DNA from: Chelativorans sp. J32 | GTDB lineage: Bacteria; Pseudomonadota; Alphaproteobacteria; Rhizobiales; Rhizobiaceae | Reading direction: 5' to 3' | Assembly (NCBI RefSeq): GCF_000518985.1 | Contig: NZ_JAEQ01000007.1 | Location: 124,001 to 188,000 of the forward strand | Length of the DNA stretch: 64,000 nt | Shown here: positions 4,455 through 62,009 of the stretch, piece after piece | Position numbering within the stretch: the stretch's first letter is position 1 | Layout: each line of letters starts with the position of its first letter | Made by a program: the position numbers and the translations under genes | The notes under the pieces: generated by a model | What the model saw: the letters and a program-made list of their open reading frames with translations, nothing else | What the model was told of the DNA's origin: nothing | The model's database searches: none

Positions 4455-5561
4455 CTATGCTGCGGCCCTTCCGCGTTCCGGAAAGAGCTTTAAAAGCCCT
4501 TCGGCGGAGGCCTCTGCCACGCCCCGTTCCGTAATGAGCCCGGTCACGAGTCGCGCGGGCGTCACGTCGAAGGCAGGATTGGCAGCAGGAGTCGCATCAG
4601 GCGAGATCCGCACCTGCGTGATCTCGCCTGATGCGGTCTTCCCCCAAACGAGCGAGACCTCCTCCGCCGAGCGTTCCTCGATTGGGATCTCTTTCACCCC
4701 GTCGCGCACAGTCCAGTCGATCGTAGGGGAGGGGAGGCCGACATAGAAAGGCACGCCATTGTCCTTGGCGGCAAGCGCCTTCAGATAGGTGCCGATCTTG
4801 TTGCAGACATCGCCATTCGCCGTGGTACGGTCGGTGCCGACAATCACCATGTCGACCAAGCCGTGCTGCATCAGGTGCCCGCCGGCATTGTCGACGATCA
4901 GCGTGTGCGGCACGCCGTGGCCTGCCATTTCCCACGCCGTGAGATGCGCGCCCTGATTGCGCGGTCGGGTCTCGTCCACATACACATGGACCGGGATTTT
5001 CTCTTCAGTCGCAAGATAGATCGGCGCGGTGGCGGTGCCGTAATCGACGGTGGCGAGCCAACCCGCATTGCAGTGGGTGAGGATGTTCACCGGCTCACCG
5101 GGTTTCTTGCGCTTGGCGATCTCCTTGATGATCGAAAGCCCGTGCTTGCCGATCGCGCGGTTCAGTTCCACGTCCTCGTCGGCGATCTCTGCCGCCCGCA
5201 CATAGGCTGCTGCGGCACGTTCGCCCTCGGGAAGCGGGCGCAGCGTCTCGCGCATCGCGTCGAGCGCCCAGCGCAGATTGATCGCGGTGGGCCGGGTCGC
5301 ATGCAGTTCTTGCCAAACGGCATCCAGAGCCGCATCGGATGGGTCTTCCCGCATGCGGATCGCCACGCCATAGGCAGCCGTCACACCGATCAGAGGCGCT
5401 CCGCGGACCCACATATCGCGGATGGCTGTCGCGATCCCAGCCACCGTGCGGACATTCTCGATGCGGAATTGATGCGGCAGCCAGCGCTGGTCGATGAGAA
5501 CCACCGACCAGCCGTCTTCGTTCAGCCAGATGGTGCGGTAATGCTTGTCTCCGACCTTCAT
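4455..5561 (-). CDS. mtnA: S-methyl-5-thioribose-1-phosphate isomerase
   Basis: Isomerises 5-methylthioribose 1-phosphate to 5-methylthioribulose 1-phosphate in methionine salvage. 368 residues, normal length. The substrate-binding WVRGAPLIG lies at residues 51-59. The catalytic cysteine is Cys164 in [10 protein letters not shown] and the catalytic aspartate is Asp244 in [11 protein letters not shown], matching the Cys/Asp pair of characterised MtnA rather than an eIF2B subunit. It follows mtnK by 16 bases on the same strand, an operon. No mtnB, mtnC or mtnD is nearby, so the classical route to methionine is not encoded here; an aldolase gene lies 5.3 kb away instead. Confidence 0.94.
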
Positions 5562-5577
5562 CCTGTTTCTCCTTGGC

Positions 5578-6837
5578 TCATAGCCCTTGGTCGAGCGACT
5601 TCGCCAGCCGGTCGAGCTCCGCCAGTGAACTGATGTGCTTGCGATTCACGGCGATATGCCGCCCAAAGCGGAGCGCAGCGGCCTCGCAGGAGGCCCTGAG
5701 TTTGGTATCCTCTATGCTCTCGAAATCGGCATTGTGGGCGAGCCCCAGGATCCGCCGGTGGATTTCGATGCCCGCAAAGCCCAGCATATCCGTCCAGATG
5801 TCATGGATCACATGGTTCAGCGCCTGTTCGGCGCCCAAGGCATCTCCTTGGTCTTCATAGAGGCTCCGGTGGTAGAGCATGCCCCTGCGCTCGGTACGCC
5901 AGAGCCTGGCGAACTCCTCGCGGAAGATGGCCCAGGTCTCCTCGATCACACGCACTAGATAGGCGCGCATGTCCTCGCGGGAACCCTCCGCTTCATGCCC
6001 ACGCTGGGAGAAAAAAGCCATCCAGTAATTGGAGAGCAGCATGCCCACATCGAACGCCATTGGCCCATAGAAGGCGAATTCAGGATCGATGATGCGCGTG
6101 TCGCTTTCCGTCACCATGACCGAGCCCGTGTGCAGGTCTCCATGCACTAGGGTTTCCGCCTTGGCGGCGAAAAGATGCTTCAGCTTCTGGGCTTCGACTT
6201 TCAGGTCACGGTCGGCCCTGAGCTCCGCGACCACCGGACCGAGTTCCGGCGTGTGCCGGTTCATGGGGGCGGAGAAATAAGGGTCGGTGAAGACGAGATT
6301 CTCGGTGATGTCGCAGAGCTCCACATTCTCGGCGAAGAGCGCTAGATCCGCCTTGCGGTCGCGCGTTTCCATGTGAAGGTCGGAGCCGCGGAAGAGCGTG
6401 CGCGCCATGAAGAGGCCGAGATCCTCTGCGATGCGCGGAAGCTGCCGTCCTTGGATCAGTGCCCGCCGCAGAATGATATGCGGCGACAGGTATTCCATTA
6501 CGATCAGCGCCTGCTGCTCGTCGAAATGGTAAATGGCCGGCACCTGGCCTGGCGCTCGCTTCTCCTGGCGCGTCAGCGCGTGATATTCGAAGAAGGAACG
6601 CTTCAGCGGCAGCGGCCAGCTATCGCCGACGAGGCGCACGTAGGGAAGCGCCTGCTTGACAACGACCGCGCCCCTGTCTCCCTCGACGATGAAGACGAGG
6701 TTGAGGTTACCATCGCCTACCTCGCGCACCCTCCAGCTCGATCCTGTGCCGCCGACATGCTCCGCGACCGCGGTCACCCTTACGAGGCGTTCAGGCAAGG
6801 TCTCCACCGTCAGGGGCTGAAACGCGCTGCCATGCAT
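5578..6837 (-). CDS. mtnK: S-methyl-5-thioribose kinase
   Basis: Phosphorylates methylthioribose at C1 using ATP, the entry step for salvage of the sugar made from methylthioadenosine. 419 residues with the aminoglycoside-kinase-like fold. The GDGNLN nucleotide loop is at residues 41-46. The catalytic HGDLHTGS at 232-239 is diagnostic for MtnK, and the metal-binding DPEFAFYGP is at 251-259. First gene of the mtnK-mtnA operon, divergent from the importer genes starting at 6952. The shared 114-bp intergenic region contains a 7-bp inverted repeat that may serve a common regulator. Confidence 0.94.
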
Positions 6838-6885
6838 GGGTCTCCTCCATCCTCCTCCGCATCACCCTCTCACGCTAGCAAGTGG

Positions 6886-6913
6886 TTTGTCATTTTTCAA
6901 TGGTGTTGACAAA
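6886..6913. promoter_or_regulatory. Inverted repeat TTTGTCA/TGACAAA in the mtnK-importer divergent promoter
   Basis: Perfect 7-bp inverted repeat, TTTGTCA at 6886-6892 and TGACAAA at 6907-6913, separated by 14 bases. It is centred in the only shared regulatory region of mtnK-mtnA and the ABC importer. Position and symmetry suit an operator for the SorC-family regulator encoded at 12994-13977. That pairing is inference. Confidence 0.45.
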
Positions 6914-6951
6914 TGCTCGGCACCTGATAGCGTCCGAGGTGGGAGGAAATC

Positions 6952-8463
6952 ATGGCAGAGGGCGCCATCTTCCGCATTGCGGGTCTCGGAAAATCATTCG
7001 GCCCCAACGATGTCTTGCGCGGCGTCGCGATGGAGCTTCGCGCCGGCGAGGTCACCGTTCTTATGGGCGCCAATGGCGCCGGTAAGTCGACGCTTGTGAA
7101 GATCATGAGCGGCATTCATCAGGCTGATCGAGGCGTGATGATGTTGGCAGACGCGCCTTTCCTGCCCGCCACCCCCGCAGAAGCGATGCGCGCCGGCGTG
7201 GTTACCGTGCATCAGAACATCAATGACGGGGTGGTCGGTGCACTCGACGTCGCCACAAACCTGGTGCTTGATCGGCTGAATGATACGGGCCGCGGAATCT
7301 TCTTCAATCCGCGTCGCGTGCGCCGCGAGGCAGCGGACGTGGCGGCCCGCATGGGCCTGCGCCTCGATCTTTCCGCCGATGTGACCGAACTGCCGCTCGC
7401 CGACCGGCAGATGGTCGCCATCGCCCGAGCGATGGCGCACGAGCCGAAGGTCATGATCCTGGACGAGCCGACCTCTTCGCTTTCGGCCAATGAGGCCGCG
7501 CGTCTGTTTGACCTGATCGACCGGCTGCGCGCGCGCGGTGTCGCCATCCTCTATATTTCCCATCGCATGTCCGACATCCGGAGGCTTGCGGACCGCATCT
7601 TCAGCTTGCGCGATGGCCAGATCGTTGGCCGTTTCGAGGAGAAGCCGCTCGATTATGAGGGTGCGGTGAACGCAATGCTCGGGCGCAATCTCGGCCGGAG
7701 CGGCATAGCCTCCCGTGCTGCTTCACGCCCGATCTTTTCTGCCGAAGGGCTACTGATATCACCGGCTGGCCGACCGTTTTCGCTTACGCTCGGAGCGGGT
7801 GAAGTGGTGGCAGTGACGGGGCTCGTCGGCGTCGGCAAGACACGGCTCGCCGAGACCCTATATGGCATTCACGCCCCGCTTGGGGGGACGATGCAGCTCG
7901 ACGGCAGCGTTTACCGGCCGAAAGCGCCGGCGGAAGCCATTGCCCGCGGCGTCTTTCTCGTCGCGAAGGATCGCGCGCAGACGGGCATCGTGCCGGATTT
8001 CAACATCTACGAGAATATGAGCCTGCCGTTTCTGCCTCGTTTCTCGCATTTCGGCGTGGCGCGGCGCCGTGCGGAGCGGGCAAAGGCACGGGAACAGATC
8101 AAGGATCTGAAGATCGTCTGCCGCTCCGAGCGCGACGATCTTGCAACGCTGTCGGGCGGCAACCAGCAGAAGGTGACCGTCGCGCGCTGGCTTTCACAAC
8201 CCTCCCGGCTCCTGATCCTGGATGAGCCCTTCCAGGGCGTGGACATCGCCGCTCGGCACGATATCGCCGCCAAGCTGCGCGAGAGCGCGGCGGATCGCGC
8301 CACGCTCCTTTTCCTCACGGAATTGGACGAGGCGCTGGAAACGGCGGACCGCATCCTCGTGATGTCTGAGCACACGATCGTCGGGGAGCACCGCAGCGCG
8401 GAAGTCGACATGGAGCGCCTGCTGGCCGATGTGGCGGGGAGGGGCATCGGCGATGCTGCATGA
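6952..8463 (+). CDS. Sugar ABC importer ATPase (two ABC domains, RbsA/XylG type)
   Basis: 503-residue energising subunit of a ribose-type sugar importer at the cytoplasmic membrane. The first ABC domain has Walker A GANGAGKST near residues 43-51 and Walker B VMILDEPTSS. The second has a degenerate Walker A (GLVGVGKTRL) and an intact signature LSGGNQQK, the usual asymmetry of this family. GGGAGGAAATC precedes the ATG. It is first in a three-gene plus-strand operon with permease and binding protein, and divergent from mtnK. From context the cargo is probably methylthioribose or another 5-modified ribose. The motifs alone say only carbohydrate. Confidence 0.9.
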   Translation: MAEGAIFRIAGLGKSFGPNDVLRGVAMELRAGEVTVLMGANGAGKSTLVKIMSGIHQADRGVMMLADAPFLPATPAEAMRAGVVTVHQNINDGVVGALDVATNLVLDRLNDTGRGIFFNPRRVRREAADVAARMGLRLDLSADVTELPLADRQMVAIARAMAHEPKVMILDEPTSSLSANEAARLFDLIDRLRARGVAILYISHRMSDIRRLADRIFSLRDGQIVGRFEEKPLDYEGAVNAMLGRNLGRSGIASRAASRPIFSAEGLLISPAGRPFSLTLGAGEVVAVTGLVGVGKTRLAETLYGIHAPLGGTMQLDGSVYRPKAPAEAIARGVFLVAKDRAQTGIVPDFNIYENMSLPFLPRFSHFGVARRRAERAKAREQIKDLKIVCRSERDDLATLSGGNQQKVTVARWLSQPSRLLILDEPFQGVDIAARHDIAAKLRESAADRATLLFLTELDEALETADRILVMSEHTIVGEHRSAEVDMERLLADVAGRGIGDAA

Positions 8464-8525
8464 GATATCCGGAAATGCGGGCGTCTCTTCGCGCCCCCGA
8501 GCACCGAGGATCATGAGAGGTGACC

Positions 8526-9581
8526 ATGAGTAGCGATCTCGTCGGAAAGCCTGTCACGGAAGCCCAGCCATCCGGCGGCGCCCGCCTTTCCCTGCGCGAA
8601 CTCGCCATCCGCTATGGTTTCCTGCTTCTGCTGGCTGGTCTCATCGTTTTCTTCTCGCTCGCCACGCGCGGCTTCGCCTCGCCGCAAGCAGCCGTTTTCA
8701 TCCTCCAGTCGGTCTCCATAACGGGAATCCTGGCGCTCGGCGTGACCGCCACCATGGTGGTGGGCGGCTTCGACCTCTCCATCGGCTCGATCGCCACAAG
8801 CGCAATGATGGCCGCGGCCTATGTGATGGTGGTCATGGAGCAGAACGCATTGGTGGCGGTGCTCGTCTGCCTGGCCATCGGTGCGCTGGTCGGCCTGATC
8901 AACGGGCTGATCATCTGCTATATGCGCGTGCCGGATCTGCTCGCCACGCTCGGCATGATGTTCCTGCTGATCGGCCTCCAGCGCATCCCGACCGAGGGCC
9001 GCTCCATCGCCGCCGGCATGACCATGCCCGACGGCTCGACCGCTGCCGGCACCTTCAGCGCTAATTTCCTGGCGCTGGGCCGGCATCGCTTCGATTTCTT
9101 CATTCCCGATCTCGTGCCAGCCTCGGTGGTCGTGCTCATCGTGCTTGCGGTGCTTATCTGGTTTTTCCTGGAATACACGCGCTTCGGCCGCATGATGTAT
9201 GCCGTAGGTTCCAATGCGCGGGCGGCGGAGTTCGCCGGCGCGCCGGTCAAGGCATACAAGATCTGGGCCTATGTCATCTCCGGCATCTTTTCTTCCATCG
9301 GTGGTATCCTTTTGGCCGCTCGTCTCGGGCGCGGCGATATCGCCTCGGGGAACAATCTTCTGCTCGATGCGGTGGCCGCAGCATTGATTGGCTTTGCCGT
9401 GCTCGGCGCGGCGAAGCCGAATGCTTTCGGCACCGCTATCGGCGCGCTATTCGTGGGTGTGCTGCTGCAGGGCCTCACGATGATGAACGTGCCCTATTAC
9501 ACGCAGGATTTCGTCAAGGGAGCGGTGCTCGTCATCGCGCTCGTCTTCACTTTCTCGCTGCTCGGCCGCAATGCCCGGTAG
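8526..9581 (+). CDS. Sugar ABC importer permease (RbsC type)
   Basis: 351-residue polytopic inner-membrane protein of the ribose/xylose permease family with about ten hydrophobic segments. Recognisable stretches are VGGFDLSIGSI, the hallmark of RbsC-like permeases, and VGSNARAAEFAGAPV in the EAA-like cytoplasmic loop. I take ATG 8526 as start because GAGAGGTGACC lies just upstream; a GTG six bases earlier is possible. 62 bases separate it from the ATPase gene. Likely carries the same substrate as its binding protein at 9612. Confidence 0.88.
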   Translation: MSSDLVGKPVTEAQPSGGARLSLRELAIRYGFLLLLAGLIVFFSLATRGFASPQAAVFILQSVSITGILALGVTATMVVGGFDLSIGSIATSAMMAAAYVMVVMEQNALVAVLVCLAIGALVGLINGLIICYMRVPDLLATLGMMFLLIGLQRIPTEGRSIAAGMTMPDGSTAAGTFSANFLALGRHRFDFFIPDLVPASVVVLIVLAVLIWFFLEYTRFGRMMYAVGSNARAAEFAGAPVKAYKIWAYVISGIFSSIGGILLAARLGRGDIASGNNLLLDAVAAALIGFAVLGAAKPNAFGTAIGALFVGVLLQGLTMMNVPYYTQDFVKGAVLVIALVFTFSLLGRNAR

Positions 9582-9611
9582 CGCTGAAAATTCGGTTCAA
9601 TGGAGGAGAAA

Positions 9612-10667
9612 ATGATTTTCACAAGAAGAGTTCTGGGCAAGGTTGGGCTTGCCCTTCTGGGGGCGAGTTTCCTGGCACCCGTGGCGGCGATCGCGCAGGA
9701 CAAACCCGCGCCGTTCGACAACCCCGGCGAGGTCGACATCGCGCTGGTGCGCTATCTTTCGACCGGTGACTTCTTCCAGGCCTATCTTTCGGGGGTAGAG
9801 GCTCAGGCCAAGGCGCTCGGCGTCAATCTGCGTGTTTTCGATAGCCGCCAGGATGCTGCGCTGCAGGCCGATATGGTCGACCAGGCGATCGCCCTCGGCG
9901 TCGACGGCATCATCATCCAGCACGGCCTGACCGAATCCATGAAGGAAGCCGCCCAGCGCGCGGTCGATGCCGGCATCAAGGTTGTGGCCTTCGACGTGAA
10001 TGTGGAAAACGAGGCCATCCCGCAGATCGAGCAGTCCGACCGCGACCTCGCCCGCCTCGCCCTGGAACAGGCCATCAAGGACAATGGCGAAAGCTGGAAG
10101 GCGGCTTACGTCTACGTCGCCGGCATTGCGCCTCTCGACCGCCGCGACGAGACCTGGCGCGAGTTCAAGGAAAAATATCCGGGCATCGAGGAAGTGGCGC
10201 AGTTCGGCACGCTCGACAACCCGATCGCCAATTCCGTGGCCAACCAGGCACGTTCCGTGCTCACCGCCAATCCGGACGTCCAGGTGGTCTTCGCCCCCTA
10301 TGACGAATTCGCCAAGGGCGTCAAAATTGCCGTGGACGAGGCTGGCATGTCCGGCAACATCAAGATCTATTCCGCTGATATCTCGACGGCTGACATCTCG
10401 GCCATGCGCGAGCCGGGCAGTGCCTGGGCAGCCACGGCCGCGACCAATCCGGCGGTTGTCGGCGAGGTTTCGGTTCGCGCGCTCGCCATGCTGCTCGCCG
10501 GCGAGGATCCCGGCCAGAGCGTGATCGTGCCTCCGACGCTGATCACGCAGGCTCAGCTGAACGAACAGGATATCAAGAACATGGAAGAACTCTCGCAGAA
10601 GCTGCCGCAGTTCGCCCATGCGGATGTTGCCGTTCCGGCCTGGATGCCCCTCCCGCCGCGGGATTGA
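9612..10667 (+). CDS. Periplasmic sugar-binding protein of the ABC importer
   Basis: 351-residue precursor of a periplasmic ribose-family (Peripla_BP_4) solute-binding protein. The N terminus MIFTRRVLGKVGLALLGAS ends in AAIAQ, a plausible signal peptide cleaved after about residue 28. The ATG at 9612 is preferred to the in-frame ATG at 9600, because the strong GGAGGA at 9602-9607 would otherwise lie inside the gene. Typical motifs are DSRQDAALQADMVDQAIALGVDGIII and PYDEFAKGV. Last gene of the importer operon, followed by a strong terminator at 10686. Substrate is inferred from the mtn neighbours. Confidence 0.88.
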   Translation: MIFTRRVLGKVGLALLGASFLAPVAAIAQDKPAPFDNPGEVDIALVRYLSTGDFFQAYLSGVEAQAKALGVNLRVFDSRQDAALQADMVDQAIALGVDGIIIQHGLTESMKEAAQRAVDAGIKVVAFDVNVENEAIPQIEQSDRDLARLALEQAIKDNGESWKAAYVYVAGIAPLDRRDETWREFKEKYPGIEEVAQFGTLDNPIANSVANQARSVLTANPDVQVVFAPYDEFAKGVKIAVDEAGMSGNIKIYSADISTADISAMREPGSAWAATAATNPAVVGEVSVRALAMLLAGEDPGQSVIVPPTLITQAQLNEQDIKNMEELSQKLPQFAHADVAVPAWMPLPPRD

Positions 10668-10685
10668 AGCTTTGCGCTGATCGAG

Positions 10686-10714
10686 AAGGGCGGCTCACGG
10701 CCGCCCTTTTCTTT
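10686..10714 (+). terminator. Rho-independent terminator of importer operon
   Basis: A 9-bp stem AAGGGCGGC/GCCGCCCTT with a five-base loop is followed by TTCTTT. It lies 19 bases after the binding-protein stop codon. The remainder of the gap to 10908 shows nothing I can name. Confidence 0.85.
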
Positions 10715-10908
10715 ATCCAGCTTCCCTGATTTCGGTTATCCTGGAAGCCGGAGCGCGCCGTAGGCTATCCTGAACCCCAGAGACCTCAGCGGTTCCGCAA
10801 AGCCACAAGCGATCCTGAAGAACGCCACGACGAGCGGCCCGTGCTCGACGTCCAGCGGTAAATGGGTCCGGCTCTCGCTTCGCTCAGGCGGGGATGACGA
10901 AGTGACGC

Positions 10909-12963
10909 CTATCTCAACGCGGCCGCGATATTGCCGCCGTCGACGGTTGTCACATTGCCGGTGGTGCGCTCGGCCAGCGCCTGATGCAGGAAGGCCTGCG
11001 CCACATCCTCGGCCCGCACTTCGAGGCCGAGCAGGTTCCCGCCCATATATTCCTTTTCCGAAACGCCGCGTGCCTTGGCCCGGTTGGCGATCATCTCGTC
11101 CGTCAAGAGCCCCGAGCGGATGCGGTCGGCGTTCACCGCGTTGGAGCGCACGCCGATCGCGCCATAATCAATCGCATACTGGCGGGAAAGGAAGAGGGTG
11201 GCCGCCTTTGGCAGGCCATAGGCGCCGAAATTCGGCCCCGGATTGACCGCCTGCTTGGAGGTGTTGAAGAGCAGAACGCCGCCTGTCTTCTGCATCTTGA
11301 AGATGCGCACCGCATTGCTTGCTACGCTCTGATGGGCGAAGAAATTGAGCTCGAAGCTTTTCCTGAGCAGAGCGTCGTCGACCTCGCCGATCCTGCCCTC
11401 CCAGGCCGCACCGGCATTCGAGATCACGATATCGACGCCGCCATAGGTATTCACCGCCTTGTCGAAGGCTCCACGCACGTCTGCCGGATTCGTTACGTCC
11501 GCACCGATCCCTATCGAGTTGTTGCCGGCGTCCTTGGCTGCGGCCTGGGCGTTCTCCCCGTCGAGATCGACCACGACCACATGCGCGCCATAGGAGGCGA
11601 ACAGTTTTGCTGTGGCCGCGCCGATAGCGCCTGCGCCCCCTGTCACGAGCATGACTTGGCCGGAGAGCGGCTTCGGCTTGTTGGAGGCGAGTTTCGCCTG
11701 TTCCAGGGACCAGTATTCCAGCTCGAAAAGATCGGAGAGCGCCAGCGGGTGGAACGAGCCGATCGCTTCGGCTCCGGTCACTGCCTCGATCAGCATTTCA
11801 CCCACATCGGCAGCGATCTTGGCCTCTTTGAGGCTGCGGCCGTGGCCGAAAAGCCCCAGACCGCGAACGAGCGTCAGCCGCGGCATGGGGTCGAGCATGG
11901 TGCGCGTCACGTCGTCCCGCGCGTCATTGGTTTCGAAATAATCCCGGTATCGGTTGGAGTACTCCGCCACCCGCTCACGGACGATGTTGGAATAGTCCTC
12001 CAGCTTGCCAGTTTCAGGCGCCGGCAGAACCATGGGACCCGTCTTGATGCGGATCGAGAGATCAGGCGTTGAGACGCCGCGCCTGGCGAGATCCTCCGCC
12101 GTATCGGCGTTCACATAATCCAGGATCTTGGGCGACGTACGGAAATCGCAGACCATGCGATCAAACCGGCCTTCGCCATGGTCGACTGCCACCGCACCGC
12201 GCAGATAGGGCGCGATCTCAGAAGGTGATGCGAGCGAGGAGGGCAGGGCGGCCGCGGAAAACGGCTTCCTGCCCTTTCTCGCCACGAATTCCTCCGCCAG
12301 CGTCACGAACTCGATCATGAGATCGTAGGCTTCCTTCGCCCCTTCGGCGAAGGTGAAGATGCCGTGCTTGTCCAGGATCAGGCCCTCGACGGAAGGATCC
12401 GACTCGTAGATCTCGGCCGCCGCCTTGGCGAGGTCAAAGCCCGGCTTGATATACGGCACGAAACCCAGGCGCTTGCCGAAGACCTCGCGGCAGAGCGGCT
12501 CGCTTTCCTTCTGGTCCACCAAAGCCAGAATGGCCGTCGAATGCGTATGATCGACGAATTTATGCGGAAGAAATGCGTGCAGAAGCGTTTCGATGGAAGG
12601 GTTGGGCGCATACGGGTCGATGAGATTCGCCCTCTGCATCGCCACCATGTCTTCATCCGACAGCTGGTCCAGCTTTCGCGCGGCGAGCAGCGCCTCCATC
12701 TTGACGGCCGGCAGGCCGGCCGGCTCGATCACCGCCATGTCCCAGCCGCTGCCCTTTACGCAGAGCACGTCCCATTCCTGGCCGAGCAGATCCCTGGTCT
12801 TGGTTTTCAGAGAGGTGTTACCGCCGCCATGGAGCACAAGCCTGGGCTCGCCGCCCAGAAGCCGCGTCGTATAGACCCGAAGCGCCAGATCGCGATCCAC
12901 TCCCTTTGCGCCATAGGCGTTTACGAGCTTTTCGGCTTCGCTGTCGTTCCAGAGGTTCTGCAT
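10909..12963 (-). CDS. Class II aldolase / short-chain dehydrogenase fusion
   Basis: 684-residue fusion of the RhaD-like bifunctional type. The N-terminal half is a zinc class II aldolase domain, with LHGGGNTSLK near residues 44-53 and the metal histidines in DHTHSTAI. The C-terminal half is an SDR with VTGGAGAIG and catalytic YGLPK. Family members split rhamnulose 1-phosphate to DHAP and lactaldehyde and then oxidise or reduce the aldehyde. No rhamnose isomerase or kinase is nearby, but mtnK and mtnA are, so methylthioribulose 1-phosphate is the likelier substrate, giving DHAP and methylthioacetaldehyde. The start at 12963 fits the upstream GGCGGGAAGACG; ATG at 12984 or 12981 is possible. 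Confidence 0.85.
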   Translation of the reverse strand: MQNLWNDSEAEKLVNAYGAKGVDRDLALRVYTTRLLGGEPRLVLHGGGNTSLKTKTRDLLGQEWDVLCVKGSGWDMAVIEPAGLPAVKMEALLAARKLDQLSDEDMVAMQRANLIDPYAPNPSIETLLHAFLPHKFVDHTHSTAILALVDQKESEPLCREVFGKRLGFVPYIKPGFDLAKAAAEIYESDPSVEGLILDKHGIFTFAEGAKEAYDLMIEFVTLAEEFVARKGRKPFSAAALPSSLASPSEIAPYLRGAVAVDHGEGRFDRMVCDFRTSPKILDYVNADTAEDLARRGVSTPDLSIRIKTGPMVLPAPETGKLEDYSNIVRERVAEYSNRYRDYFETNDARDDVTRTMLDPMPRLTLVRGLGLFGHGRSLKEAKIAADVGEMLIEAVTGAEAIGSFHPLALSDLFELEYWSLEQAKLASNKPKPLSGQVMLVTGGAGAIGAATAKLFASYGAHVVVVDLDGENAQAAAKDAGNNSIGIGADVTNPADVRGAFDKAVNTYGGVDIVISNAGAAWEGRIGEVDDALLRKSFELNFFAHQSVASNAVRIFKMQKTGGVLLFNTSKQAVNPGPNFGAYGLPKAATLFLSRQYAIDYGAIGVRSNAVNADRIRSGLLTDEMIANRAKARGVSEKEYMGGNLLGLEVRAEDVAQAFLHQALAERTTGNVTTVDGGNIAAALR

Positions 12964-12993
12964 CGTCTTCCCGCCTGTCATCATTGAGGGGCT

Positions 12994-13977
12994 TCACGCG
13001 GTTGCGCGTGTGGCTTCGTCCTTGGATTGAGTTGCGTTTGCGTGGTCGAGCAGGCGTTTGGCCATGCGCGACGTTAGCACGAGATGTGTCGAAAACCGGC
13101 CTTTGAGCGCGGCCAGGAGCGGCTCGAACTTCTCGTCCTCCTGCACCACCATCAGCCGGCGTGGAATGGCGCGAATGGCGTCGAAATCAGCCGAGATCAT
13201 GCGGCGATTGTAGTCGCAGTCGAGCAATGTGCCTTCCTCGGTGATCACCTGGCCTGCAATGACACCGACCCCGCCCTTCCGCTTGATGTCGGAAAATTCC
13301 TTCAGGCTCAGCGCGCCGCATTTGATCACATGGCTGTCTTCGTTGAGGGTGCCGACAGTGAAAAGCGCAAGGTCGCAGGAACTGACCCCTTCCAACTGCT
13401 CGCGAATGACCGGTTCTTCGCGCAATTGCCGCGCAAGCTCTTCGGTGCTCAGCACCAGCGGTGCATAGCAGTTCAAGCCTTTGGCGTTCAGCCTGCGCGC
13501 AATCTCCATGGTGCATTGGTCCGGCCGATAGGAATAGGGCGAGCCGAGATTGCCGCAGAGTTCCACGACCGTGACGTCCTGCCGGTCCGCATAGGACATG
13601 GCGTCCGCCATCGCGTATACCGTACGGCCCCAGGCGACGCCCACGCGATCGCCATTGTGCACCATTTCGAGAAAAACATTCGCCGCCAGCGTCGGAATTT
13701 CCGCGGCCGCATCGTGCGCCAACCCTTCCTCGCTCACCATCCAAACGGAGTCGAGCCCGTAAGCGTCCTCCAACTGGCGGGCCATCATGTCGTCGCGGAA
13801 GAGATCGGTGGAAGTGGAGATGGTGACGATCCCCATTTCTCGTGCGCGGCGCAGATAAAGCGCCACCGACGCGCGCGAAATATTGAGCCGCTGGGCTACC
13901 TCGTCCTGCCGCAGCCCGTGCGTGTAATAAAGCCAGGCGGCCTTGTGGACGATCTGTTCTGCAGAACGAAGCGCCAT
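12994..13977 (-). CDS. SorC-family sugar-responsive transcriptional regulator
   Basis: 327-residue regulator. An N-terminal helix-turn-helix, DEVAQRLNISRASVALYLRR at residues 25-44, is followed by a sugar-phosphate-binding domain with the family signature motifs GVAWGRTVYA and CGALSLKEF. It is upstream of and co-oriented with the aldolase/SDR gene (30-base gap), a probable operon. SorC proteins usually sense a phosphorylated intermediate of the pathway they control. Here methylthioribulose 1-phosphate or DHAP would be a reasonable inducer, which is inference. GGAGGAAAG precedes the ATG. Confidence 0.88.
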   Translation of the reverse strand: MALRSAEQIVHKAAWLYYTHGLRQDEVAQRLNISRASVALYLRRAREMGIVTISTSTDLFRDDMMARQLEDAYGLDSVWMVSEEGLAHDAAAEIPTLAANVFLEMVHNGDRVGVAWGRTVYAMADAMSYADRQDVTVVELCGNLGSPYSYRPDQCTMEIARRLNAKGLNCYAPLVLSTEELARQLREEPVIREQLEGVSSCDLALFTVGTLNEDSHVIKCGALSLKEFSDIKRKGGVGVIAGQVITEEGTLLDCDYNRRMISADFDAIRAIPRRLMVVQEDEKFEPLLAALKGRFSTHLVLTSRMAKRLLDHANATQSKDEATRATA

Positions 13978-14001
13978 CTTTCCTCCTCGGATTAGACATT
14001 A

Positions 14002-14015
14002 TTCATGGCCATTAA
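14002..14015. promoter_or_regulatory. Near-palindrome upstream of the SorC regulator gene
   Basis: TTCATGGCCATTAA, imperfect at one symmetric pair, lies 25 bases upstream of the regulator ATG. It may be an autoregulatory site. It does not obviously match the inverted repeat at 6886-6913, which weakens the case that both bind the same protein. Confidence 0.3.
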
Positions 14016-14154
14016 CAAAAGTCAATCAGACCCCTCTCCCCCAGGTGAGATGCCGGCTTAAGGCCACGAAAATGCGCAGCCGACAACGATCGGCCGGCAC
14101 GGCAAAGCCTGCAGCCGTGGGGCGGAGATTTAGAAATCGCGGCCTATCGCGACC

Positions 14155-15604: not shown

Positions 15605-16243
15605 TCAGGCCGCAACAAGTTCCCTGGCCTGGCGGTGGTAAACCGGACCATTGCAAGCGAGCGCTGTCCGCATCCGCATTATCACCCGGTCGGATATTTC
15701 GAAAACGCCGCAGCACACGGGCTGGCGGCCAAATCCTTCGGCCCTGCCGACCTGTTTAGGAAACGCGCCCATCCTGTCATAGATGCGCTGCCAGGCCGGC
15801 TCGTAATTGGCCACCAATGCCCTGACGCCGTTAACCCGGCACCATTCTATGGCGGCCAATGCCAAAATGCCGAACGCCTTGCCGGCATCCATGCCTGGAA
15901 AGTCGCGTGCGAGATTTCCGGAATGGATGCATGCACGGGTCGCCTCCCAGATCCCGGGTGCTGCCAAGGAGGCGTCCGGCATGGTCTCGCGAAACACGTC
16001 GAAAAGTAGAGTTGGGCCGGTCGTCGGAAGCAGCCGCATGGATGCGTAAAGGGCAACCCGCTCCGGATCGTACCAGGCGAGATAAACCGGCCCCAGCGTG
16101 TCGTAGTGATCCCGTTCATAGTGCCCAACGAGCGAAACCTCCCATTTCAGAGCATCGTGGAAGACCTGCTTGCGCAGGCGAAACATCTGGTCGAGAACAT
16201 CTGCATGCTCATCGATCTGGTCAGGCGCGATGGATATGAACAT
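15605..16243 (-). CDS. Acyl-homoserine-lactone synthase, LuxI family
   Basis: Makes an N-acyl-homoserine lactone signal from SAM and an acyl carrier, in the cytoplasm. 212 residues. All ten family-invariant residues can be placed: Arg24, Phe28, Trp34, Glu43, Asp45, Asp48, Arg70, Phe84, Glu100 and Arg103, almost exactly at the canonical spacing. It lies 90 bases downstream of the LuxR-type gene on the same strand and ends at a clear terminator. A 24-bp imperfect dyad in the gap may be the lux box. Acyl chain length cannot be read from sequence by eye. Confidence 0.93.
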   Translation of the reverse strand: MFISIAPDQIDEHADVLDQMFRLRKQVFHDALKWEVSLVGHYERDHYDTLGPVYLAWYDPERVALYASMRLLPTTGPTLLFDVFRETMPDASLAAPGIWEATRACIHSGNLARDFPGMDAGKAFGILALAAIEWCRVNGVRALVANYEPAWQRIYDRMGAFPKQVGRAEGFGRQPVCCGVFEISDRVIMRMRTALACNGPVYHRQARELVAA

Positions 16244-16310
16244 AGTTCCCTCCGCATCTTGGGCGAAGGGATTGTCCTATGGGGTCAGGCGGAGAAAAAT
16301 CGCCCCAAAT

Positions 16311-16334
16311 GATCGCCCCCATATGGGAGGGGTC
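16311..16334. promoter_or_regulatory. Lux-box-like dyad between luxR and luxI
   Basis: A 24-bp dyad centred at 16322/16323 with a perfect CCCATATGGG core (16318-16327) and 9 of 12 symmetric pairs overall. It overlaps the luxR stop codon and lies about 70 bases upstream of luxI. Size and position suit an autoinducer-regulator operator for luxI. Confidence 0.5.
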
Positions 16335-17067
16335 ACAAGGAGATGATCCTGAAGTGAACGGCCTTCGCAACCGCCTGTGAAAGCGTGCTGCAGTCAAGCT
16401 TGTTGCGCACCGATTTAAGGTAGGCGCGCACCGTGTTTGCCGACAGTTGAAGGATGATCGCAATAGCGCGATAGTCCTTCCCGCGGGCTGTCCATCGCAG
16501 GCACTCCACTTCCCGCGGACTCAGATGCGGGAAATGGTCCTCCTCGCCATAGATTTCGAGGATCGCCTGGCGATGTAGCCTTTGTCCGATCTCGGCGAGA
16601 GCGGCAGAATGGCCGTCGAGGAAGGCAGTCCATTCGTCCGGGCTTCTGGAAGACGTCACCGAAAGCAGCGAGCGCCGCCCCTCGCGATCGACAATGGGAA
16701 TGGAATAACCGTTTGCGCCAAGCCCGAAGGCTTTTGCCTCCGCCATAAGCTGATGCTCGGCGGGAGAAAGCTCCAGGCTTTCCCAGCCGAAGGGCTCTTG
16801 CGCGGCGAAGCCGTGCCTGACTACCGGATCAACATTGACGTAGTTGCGCAGCAGATAGCGTTTGACCCACTCGGCGGGATAGGTGCTTTTGACATAGGGG
16901 GTGTCGAAAGTGCCGGCGATGCTCTTGGCCACCTGGAAGGTGGCATGGTCCAGGCCATAGGCGAGCCGCAAGACCTGCACGGCCGTTTCCACGGATGGTG
17001 AACGGGTGACGGCATCGATGGCCGCCGCCCACTGGGTCTCCTCATAAGCCTGTCTGATTGCGTTCAT
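16333..17067 (-). CDS. LuxR-family autoinducer-binding regulator
   Basis: 244-residue quorum-sensing transcription factor. The N-terminal ligand domain shows the family pattern W-x3-Y-x8-D within EWVKRYLLRNYVNVDPVV (about residues 66-83) and GANGYSIPI. The C-terminal helix-turn-helix is LSPREVECLRWTARGKDY followed by SANTVRAYLKSVRNKL. It precedes luxI on the same strand, so luxI can be read through from its promoter or from its own site in the gap. It is probably the cognate receptor. Activator or repressor mode cannot be told. Confidence 0.9.
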   Translation of the reverse strand: MNAIRQAYEETQWAAAIDAVTRSPSVETAVQVLRLAYGLDHATFQVAKSIAGTFDTPYVKSTYPAEWVKRYLLRNYVNVDPVVRHGFAAQEPFGWESLELSPAEHQLMAEAKAFGLGANGYSIPIVDREGRRSLLSVTSSRSPDEWTAFLDGHSAALAEIGQRLHRQAILEIYGEEDHFPHLSPREVECLRWTARGKDYRAIAIILQLSANTVRAYLKSVRNKLDCSTLSQAVAKAVHFRIISL

Positions 17068-60915: not shown

Positions 60916-61374
60916 ATGGCGGAAAGACGACTGGCCGAGGAGGATTTCGAAGCGCGGGTGCGCGCCAGCTTTGCCCGCCAAAAGGCCATGGCCACGATTG
61001 GGGCAGAGCTGACGCTCGTGACGCCAGGCATCGTCGAAATCGAAATGGCGCATTCCGACAATTTGACCCAGCAGCATGGCTTCCTGCATGCGGGCGTCGT
61101 CTCCATGGCGCTCGACACCGCCTGTGGCTACGCCGCTTATTCGCTGATGCCCGCCGAGGCGGGTGTGCTCACCATTGAGTTCAAGGTCAATCTGCTGGCG
61201 CCGGGGAAGGGGGAGCGTTTTTTGTTCCGGGGCTCCGTCACCAAGCCCGGGCGCACCATAATCGTGGCCGACGGCCAGGCCTATGCCTATGACGGGGAAG
61301 GGGAGGCAAAACTGATCGCCACCATGACCGGCACCATGATGACCATCGTCGGACGGGAGGGCATTGCGGGATGA
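60916..61374 (+). CDS. PaaI-type acyl-CoA thioesterase (hotdog fold)
   Basis: 152 residues. The hotdog helix is LTQQHGFLHAGVVSMALDTACGYAAYSLMPAEAGVLTIEFKVNLLAPG, and QQHGFLHAG holds the catalytic His/Gly region typical of the PaaI family. It hydrolyses small or aromatic acyl-CoA esters in the cytoplasm. The stop overlaps the start of the nucleosidase gene as ATGA, so the two are cotranscribed, although their reactions are not related in an obvious way. Confidence 0.83.
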   Translation: MAERRLAEEDFEARVRASFARQKAMATIGAELTLVTPGIVEIEMAHSDNLTQQHGFLHAGVVSMALDTACGYAAYSLMPAEAGVLTIEFKVNLLAPGKGERFLFRGSVTKPGRTIIVADGQAYAYDGEGEAKLIATMTGTMMTIVGREGIAG

Positions 61375-62009
61375 AGATTCCGATCGCCGATCTGGGGGAC
61401 AGGAAAGTGCTGTTCGCGATGGCCGCGGAGGCGGAATATGGGCCCTGCCTCAAGGCACGCTTCACGCCGTTGATGATCGGCATCGGTCCGGTCGAGGCGG
61501 CCGTGAAATTGGCGGCCGCGCTGTCGGAGCTTCGGCACGAAGGCAAGCTGCCGGATCTCGTGGTTTCCCTGGGCTCTGCCGGCAGCCGGACCCTGGAACA
61601 GACGGAAGTCTATCAGGCAAGTTCCGTTTCCTACCGCGATATGGACGCGTCTCCGCTTGGGTTCGAGAAGGGCGTAACCCCTTTCCTGAGACTACCGGCG
61701 GAAATCCAGCTCCCGATGCGGATCCCCGGCATTCCCCAGGCCAGGCTCTCCACCGGCGGAGGGATCGTCAGCGGTGAAGCCTATGGCGAGATCGCGGCCG
61801 ATATGGTCGATATGGAAACCTATGCCTGCCTGAGGGCCTGCCAGCATTTCGGCGTGGGCTTGGTCGCGCTGCGCGGAATTTCGGACGGCGCTCAGGAGCT
61901 GCGTCACGTCAGCGACTGGACGCAATACCTGCACGTCATAGATGAAAAGCTTGCCGCCGCGGTCGACCGCTTGACGGCAGCGATTGTCGAGGGCGTGATC
62001 GCACCATAG
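61371..62009 (+). CDS. mtnN: 5'-methylthioadenosine/S-adenosylhomocysteine nucleosidase
   Basis: Cleaves methylthioadenosine to adenine and methylthioribose, and SAH to adenine and ribosylhomocysteine. 212 residues, slightly short. The catalytic base region MAAEAEY is at the N terminus, VDMETYA holds the Met-Glu ribose contact, and RGISDGA the catalytic aspartate. Its product methylthioribose is the substrate of MtnK at 5578. It also detoxifies SAH and methylthioadenosine left over from SAM use, including AHL synthesis by the LuxI of this window. Confidence 0.85.
   Translation: MKIPIADLGDRKVLFAMAAEAEYGPCLKARFTPLMIGIGPVEAAVKLAAALSELRHEGKLPDLVVSLGSAGSRTLEQTEVYQASSVSYRDMDASPLGFEKGVTPFLRLPAEIQLPMRIPGIPQARLSTGGGIVSGEAYGEIAADMVDMETYACLRACQHFGVGLVALRGISDGAQELRHVSDWTQYLHVIDEKLAAAVDRLTAAIVEGVIAP

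Follow-up and report, generated by a model that had tools for sequence, protein, structure and literature searches.

A conserved gene module linking predicted methylthioribose uptake, MtnK and MtnA to a fused class II aldolase-dehydrogenase and a SorC-type regulator in Chelativorans and other rhizobia

Seven intact open reading frames (ORFs) at 4455-13977 of a 64,000-nt stretch of Chelativorans sp. J32 (NZ_JAEQ01000007.1, 124,001-188,000; hereafter the window, whose positions are used throughout) bring together two genes for the processing of 5-methylthioribose, a sugar importer, a fused aldolase-dehydrogenase and a regulator. Methylthioribose is a sugar left over from methionine metabolism. 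The minus strand carries mtnA (4455-5561; TIGR00512, 429.8 bits against a cut-off of 279) and, 16 nt upstream of it, mtnK for S-methyl-5-thioribose kinase (5578-6837; TIGR01767, 504.4 bits, cut-off 275); we infer that the two form one operon, and both products align over nearly their full length with solved relatives (1t9k for MtnA; 2pyw and 2olc for MtnK). Divergent from these on the plus strand are the three genes of an ATP-binding cassette (ABC) importer: a CUT2-type, AraG/YtfR/RbsA-like ATPase (6952-8463) matched by PF00005 in two stretches, and so with two ABC domains, a permease (8520-9581; PF02653, 144.8 bits) and a periplasmic binding protein of the CUT2/ribose type (9600-10667). Convergent with the importer, again on the minus strand, a SorC-type transcriptional regulator gene (12994-13977) lies 9 nt upstream of the ORF for a 691-residue fusion of a class II aldolase to a short-chain dehydrogenase/reductase (SDR) (10909-12984; PF00596 plus SDR domains; NF006192, 1119 bits, cut-off 639), for which the start common to its relatives is 12963 rather than the ORF start at 12984. 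Where the binding-protein and fusion genes converge, the gap between them holds a GC-rich hairpin with a T-run (10686-10714), a possible terminator; it was not among the matches of a terminator scan, and the fold of 10660-10920 of which it is part is unremarkable overall (z -1.08). An earlier note on this DNA had named this same gene content, and all of these genes proved to be open and to match their families.

The gene arrangement is not a matter of chance, because 56 of the 80 best loci, on which gene content was counted in a scan that returned at least 581 relatives of the fusion, hold the whole set of mtnK, mtnA, importer, fusion and SorC gene. Importer, kinase, isomerase, fusion and regulator are one conserved module, widespread in rhizobia. 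Smaller sets are seen in two further loci with mtnK-mtnA and no importer, five with mtnA and no mtnK, and one with mtnP only. Two Mesorhizobium loci (L032, L034) keep SorC, fusion, mtnK and mtnA, the importer being unmatched within the fetched stretch. When mtnA was sought in 17 genomes of the scan loci, 14 of them picked because the full set had not been seen beside the fusion, it was present in 16, including 11 of the 12 with no mtn gene in the stretch retrieved around the fusion. Among 290 evenly sampled Alphaproteobacteria genomes, with a fusion relative defined by E <= 1e-150, mtnA is present in 56 of the 57 genomes with such a relative (all 56 over the cut-off) and in 95 of the 233 without (88 over the cut-off), a co-occurrence with Fisher p = 1e-17, calculated on the 95 and uncorrected for kinship. 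In those 57 genomes the distance from mtnA to the fusion is within 1 kb in 29, 1.7-5.4 kb in three and greater on the same contig in three more. Other arrangements are mtnP-mtnA-fusion in Tistrella and, in a different phylum, a tandem mtnK-mtnA-fusion in Gemmatirosa (Gemmatimonadota), with both mtn genes over cut-off.

The same two-domain architecture is found in RhaD and RhaEW, and sequence identity between the window fusion and its own genome's RhaD is 33.7%, so that the fusion might be imagined as a rhamnulose-1-phosphate enzyme merely encoded beside mtnKA; we hold this to be very improbable. Its score against the RhaD model TIGR02632, 493.6 bits, falls under the cut-off of 567.75, whereas the second fusion of the genome, on another contig, scores 1091.9 bits and is surrounded by rhaI (TIGR02629, 836 bits against 647), the rhamnose-binding protein RhaS (TIGR02637, 505 against 342) and a DeoR-type regulator. 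ABC genes and a sugar kinase (the latter with no NCBIfam match at 1e-20) were also recognised there by eye, and the layout resembles that of two annotated rhamnose loci. The earlier note had named a rhaI/rhaK set elsewhere, under the control of this SorC protein, as a finding that could count against its interpretation; the rhamnose set that was found has a RhaD fusion, rhaI, RhaS and a regulator of its own. A tree built by a quick method from 72 proteins, namely the window fusion, the fusions at 55 of the 80 scan loci and further sequences taken from plasmids and from this genome, places a group of 63 mtn-type rows, with SH-aLRT 88 at its fork, apart from RhaD with support 100 and on very long branches, and apart from a 50-53% identical group, from loci without mtn genes, with support 99; these 63 rows were picked by similarity, and the tree speaks to their separation from chosen outgroups rather than to a complete family. 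The linkage of the fusion to mtnA across one class and in another phylum likewise argues against a rhamnose enzyme. RhaD identity for the window fusion was ruled out on the sub-cut-off score, the existence elsewhere in the genome of a rhamnose locus that has a RhaD, and the split in the tree, and a rhamnose role is excluded to the extent that genomics can exclude it.

Eight positions, E125, H139, H141, H200, S569, Y582, K586 and D466 (numbered from the methionine at 12963), are identical in all 66 aligned non-RhaD fusions, and we take them to be the aldolase metal-site and the SDR catalytic and nicotinamide adenine dinucleotide (NAD) residues. Ten columns are fixed (>=97%) in the 63 mtn-type rows and different in the three rows of the 50-53% identical group and the one RhaD with which they were compared; F205, five residues past H200, is among them. 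The 50-53% identical group itself (L006, L007, L023, L142, L143) comes from loci of which three have glycerol-phosphate dehydrogenase-type genes.

The regulator is assigned to the SorC family by PF04198 (174.5 bits) together with weak N-terminal matches of the helix-turn-helix type, and operator-like sites recur at both promoters of the module. The inverted repeat TGTCAA-N5-TTGACA, with up to one mismatch, is found in the divergent mtnK/ATPase promoter of 61 of 62 loci, and there are 63 such sites in total across the 1.39 Mb of the same loci; TTGACTTTTGTCA, again with up to one mismatch, is found within 150 bp in the sorC promoter of 61 of 63 loci, out of 62 sites in total on that strand. The window and many of the counted loci were among the promoters from which the patterns were derived by visual inspection, so these counts describe conservation and rarity elsewhere in the loci and are not an independent test. 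Longer patterns have one site each in the window and none in 100 shuffles: one, an operator-like inverted repeat, in the mtnK/ATPase intergenic region (6888-6916, two mismatches) and the other, a promoter/operator-like site, ahead of sorC and the fusion (13997-14025, minus strand, one mismatch). The latter overlaps a sigma-70-like promoter match (14025-13998), one of two such matches in the region where 2.5 are expected in shuffles. The natural inference would be that one SorC regulon covers both operons.

None of the three importer proteins, ATPase, permease or binding protein, scores above an equivalog cut-off in the families listed, which for the ATPase are the 25 best of 190. By sequence and by fold the top solved relative of the binding protein is 4RY8 (TLET_1677), which is titled as a 5-methylthioribose transporter binding protein, is 38% identical to it and shares its fold; the structure prediction used for this was made from an alignment with 18 relatives (predicted local distance difference test, pLDDT, 89.4), an alignment-free prediction (pLDDT 43.8) being discarded. 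By homology, then, the protein is a predicted methylthioribose-binding component of a 5-methylthioribose ABC importer, and the best relative does not belong to an unrelated sugar, a preference for which the earlier note had named as evidence against its own reading. Sugar-type ABC importers are likewise represented by TLET_1677 and by MtrACB of B. cereus and gammaproteobacteria, a probable methylthioribose importer that accompanies full methionine salvage (PMC3228920), whereas the window importer is set apart by its gene context, a set resembling the dihydroxyacetone phosphate (DHAP) shunt.

The same module might instead serve 5-deoxyribose, derived from the 5'-deoxyadenosine of radical S-adenosylmethionine enzymes, as main substrate and methylthioribose as side substrate, a tentative alternative that overlaps with the interpretation favoured below. 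DrdK of B. thuringiensis, a relative of MtnK, has similar specificity constants for both sugars (PMC6079011), and the E. coli shunt enzymes are named for both methylthioribose and 5-deoxyribose substrates (PMC10986504); against it, the closest solved binding protein carries methylthioribose in its title.

No other exit for the product of MtnA is apparent among those tested, because matches to MtnD, to the RuBisCO family and to 5'-methylthioadenosine (MTA) phosphorylase were not found. MtnD (acireductone dioxygenase, PF03079), the mark of canonical methionine salvage, was detected in none of the 19 genomes of importer type that were searched (18 relatives in addition to this one), the same search recovering it in five of 14 known genomes; this genome has no RuBisCO-family gene (PF00016), so the hallmark of the MTA-isoprenoid shunt is missing from it; and its PF01048 proteins, of which there are five, all score below the MTA phosphorylase cut-offs. 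Of four PF00596 genes in the genome none is NCBIfam-named MtnB, and one encodes a 351-residue protein without a family at E <= 1e-20. The absence of mtnB and mtnD noted earlier near the locus extends to the genome for MtnD matches and for genes named MtnB, with that 351-residue protein left as a qualification. These observations bear on the possibility that the fusion acts on some other sugar phosphate, or only clears aldehydes, while mtnK and mtnA feed a different and unseen step. Such an arrangement would suit the genomes in which the fusion lies beside unrelated genes, and also the 50-53% identical group, whose loci without mtn genes are in several cases of a glycerol-phosphate/polyol type; we consider it unlikely, given that 11 of the 12 genomes without an mtn gene in the retrieved fusion locus have mtnA elsewhere, and given the want here of any MtnD, RuBisCO-family or MtnB-named gene to take the MtnA product. 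Four loci (L091, L093, L098, L100) have the fusion after an RNase E-like gene, as recognised from the first residues of its translation, with no adjoining mtn gene; three of the four genomes have mtnA elsewhere.

Kinase-isomerase-aldolase routes of this kind are already in print. In the DHAP shunt of R. rubrum, R. palustris and some E. coli (PMC5893883, PMC10986504, PMC12632272), MtnK or MtnP, MtnA and the class II aldolase Ald2 act in turn; the window set is alike in kinase, isomerase and a class II aldolase-type protein predicted to yield DHAP and an aldehyde, and it differs in having an ABC importer of its own and an RhaEW-type aldolase fused to an SDR, where the alcohol dehydrogenase of the published shunt is, in the accessible text, only putative. 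It differs too in its SorC regulator, the E. coli shunt being controlled by MtnR, a DeoR-family repressor, and CRP. The DrdK-DrdI-DrdA clusters for 5-deoxyribose disposal share the trio of enzymes and, in some cases, predicted sugar transporters, but DrdA is a fuculose-1-phosphate aldolase homologue for which the part of PMC6079011 at hand mentions no SDR fusion. In RhaEW, by comparison, aldol cleavage is coupled to NAD-dependent oxidation of the aldehyde, with NAD needed and lactate and DHAP as products, an activity shown for the C. aurantiacus protein and weak for that of B. subtilis (PMC3870299); the window fusion has the same aldolase-dehydrogenase architecture, and it falls in another group than RhaD and its gene accompanies mtn genes and not rha genes. 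Searches of CC-licensed literature in PMC found no paper that connects the methylthioribose pathway with this fusion or with a SorC regulator. The claim of novelty made in the earlier note has to give up the clustering of such enzymes, with transporters in some cases, and appears to stand for the fused aldolase-SDR. What looks new is that fusion in a methylthioribose role, with an importer and a SorC operator.

That the Ald2 of R. palustris (RPA4655, PMC5893883) might already be such a fusion was considered and is probably not the case, judging by the lengths and positions of stand-in aldolases. A Rhodopseudomonas-like set of seven genomes with four RuBisCO-family genes each (other genomes with four being left out) gave 16 class II aldolase matches in frames of 232-456 residues, none of fusion length; in two of the seven, mtnA and one class II aldolase are separated by about 200 kb, consistent with the spacing of the locus tags RPA4655 and RPA4820/4821. 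Compared with class II aldolases of these Rhodopseudomonas-like genomes, the fusion reaches at best 29% over 103 residues (E 0.001), and of the two aldolases about 200 kb from mtnA one gives 19% (E 7.5) and the other no match.

Taken together, gene families, synteny, co-occurrence, shared operator-like sites and the kinship of the binding protein lead us to regard the locus as, with good probability, a DHAP shunt under SorC control that acts on methylthioribose and/or 5-deoxyribose taken up from outside, in which the RhaEW-type fusion would replace Ald2 and supply the dehydrogenase that is only putative in the published shunt. Following uptake by the ABC importer, the sugar would be phosphorylated at C1 by MtnK and isomerised by MtnA to 5-methylthioribulose (or 5-deoxyribulose) 1-phosphate, which the aldolase half of the fusion would cleave to DHAP and 2-(methylthio)acetaldehyde (or acetaldehyde). 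That aldehyde would then be turned over with NAD(H) by the SDR half, which, if RhaEW is a guide, probably oxidises it to the acid rather than reducing it to the alcohol, a guess that leans only a little to that side. Accumulation of a phosphorylated intermediate would be expected to release SorC from both promoters. All reactions, the effector and the direction of the redox step are deduced from the genomic evidence just listed. An MTA/S-adenosylhomocysteine nucleosidase encoded in the window and unlinked to the locus (61371-62009, plus strand; TIGR01705, 353.7 bits, cut-off 152.2; PF01048) could provide an additional, internal supply of methylthioribose. A secreted nucleosidase had also been considered as a periplasmic feeder of the importer: the MtnN-like L016 (G000:C7:58256-59191; TIGR01704, 93.8 bits against 73.8) has, by eye, a signal-peptide-like start, and it was rejected as unlinked to the module and with relatives in only three of 31 genomes, this one included. 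The pathway of the earlier note, described there as self-contained, thus gains from the conserved module, the kinship to 4RY8 and the separation of the fusion from RhaD, and is self-contained as to predicted import and cleavage, the fate of the aldehyde product falling outside that description.

Several observations weigh against this interpretation. Sixteen of the 80 best loci have no mtnK, mtnA or mtnP beside the fusion, several of them on short contigs, and in 22 of the 57 genomes of the even sample mtnA is on another contig or absent, among the matches listed (second matches for G439 and G500 fall outside these). The co-occurrence statistic ignores shared ancestry, the set defined by E <= 1e-150 takes in proteins that are 45-54% identical as well as a fragment (G389), and among the 29 cases of adjacency G404 depends on an mtnA fragment below cut-off. 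The tree is of a quick type, came with a long-branch warning and has support of 88 for the mtn-type fork; the rows whose fusion adjoins mtnK cluster together in it yet require six changes and are not one clade, so that the distinct clade the earlier note had proposed to look for holds for the fusion group relative to RhaD and not for the mtnK-adjacent members. Nor is the NF006192 score group-defining, since that model also matches the non-mtn L006 protein above cut-off. As to the redox step, R. palustris with Ald2 yields the alcohol and not the acid (PMC5893883).

Should the favoured interpretation be true, a function could be proposed for a large group of proteins now known only as 'bifunctional aldolase/short-chain dehydrogenase', and the fusion would be a candidate for the dehydrogenase left putative in the DHAP-shunt papers. 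Scavenging of external methylthioribose or 5-deoxyribose would then be suggested for many rhizobia and for soil bacteria related to them, with a bearing on carbon and sulfur cycling, and the regulon could be tested directly by way of the operator-like motif. A bolder version, which we think doubtful, would see a separately recruited, oxidative, carbon-yielding and externally fed DHAP shunt, in which an alphaproteobacterial RhaEW-type enzyme passes 2-(methylthio)acetaldehyde directly to NAD-dependent oxidation, giving methylthioacetate (or, from 5-deoxyribose, acetate), with a linked split transketolase and RuBisCO-like protein in rhizobial relatives as a second, undescribed branch that starts from methylthioribulose 1-phosphate.

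In many rhizobial relatives the module does add a split transketolase/DXS-like pair (11 of the 80 best loci) and a RuBisCO-like protein (10 of the 80), genes that possibly form a second branch from methylthioribulose 1-phosphate and were not seen beside the window mtnA; the loci concerned are L002, L003/L008, L004/L009, L021, L022, L065, L066, L069, L071-L074, L077, L078, L080 and L082, and the best solved relative of the L022 RuBisCO-like protein is 3qfw. Elsewhere in the window, two long ORFs between 32153 and 36743 have no Pfam family match at 1e-8, and phage-like genes encode a minor tail protein (PF10145, 38322-40505) and an integrase (PF00589, 57439-58647). Closer to the module, at 15605-17067, a luxI-type autoinducer synthase gene (PF00765) adjoins one for a luxR-type regulator (PF03472, PF00196), near an rsmB-like gene.

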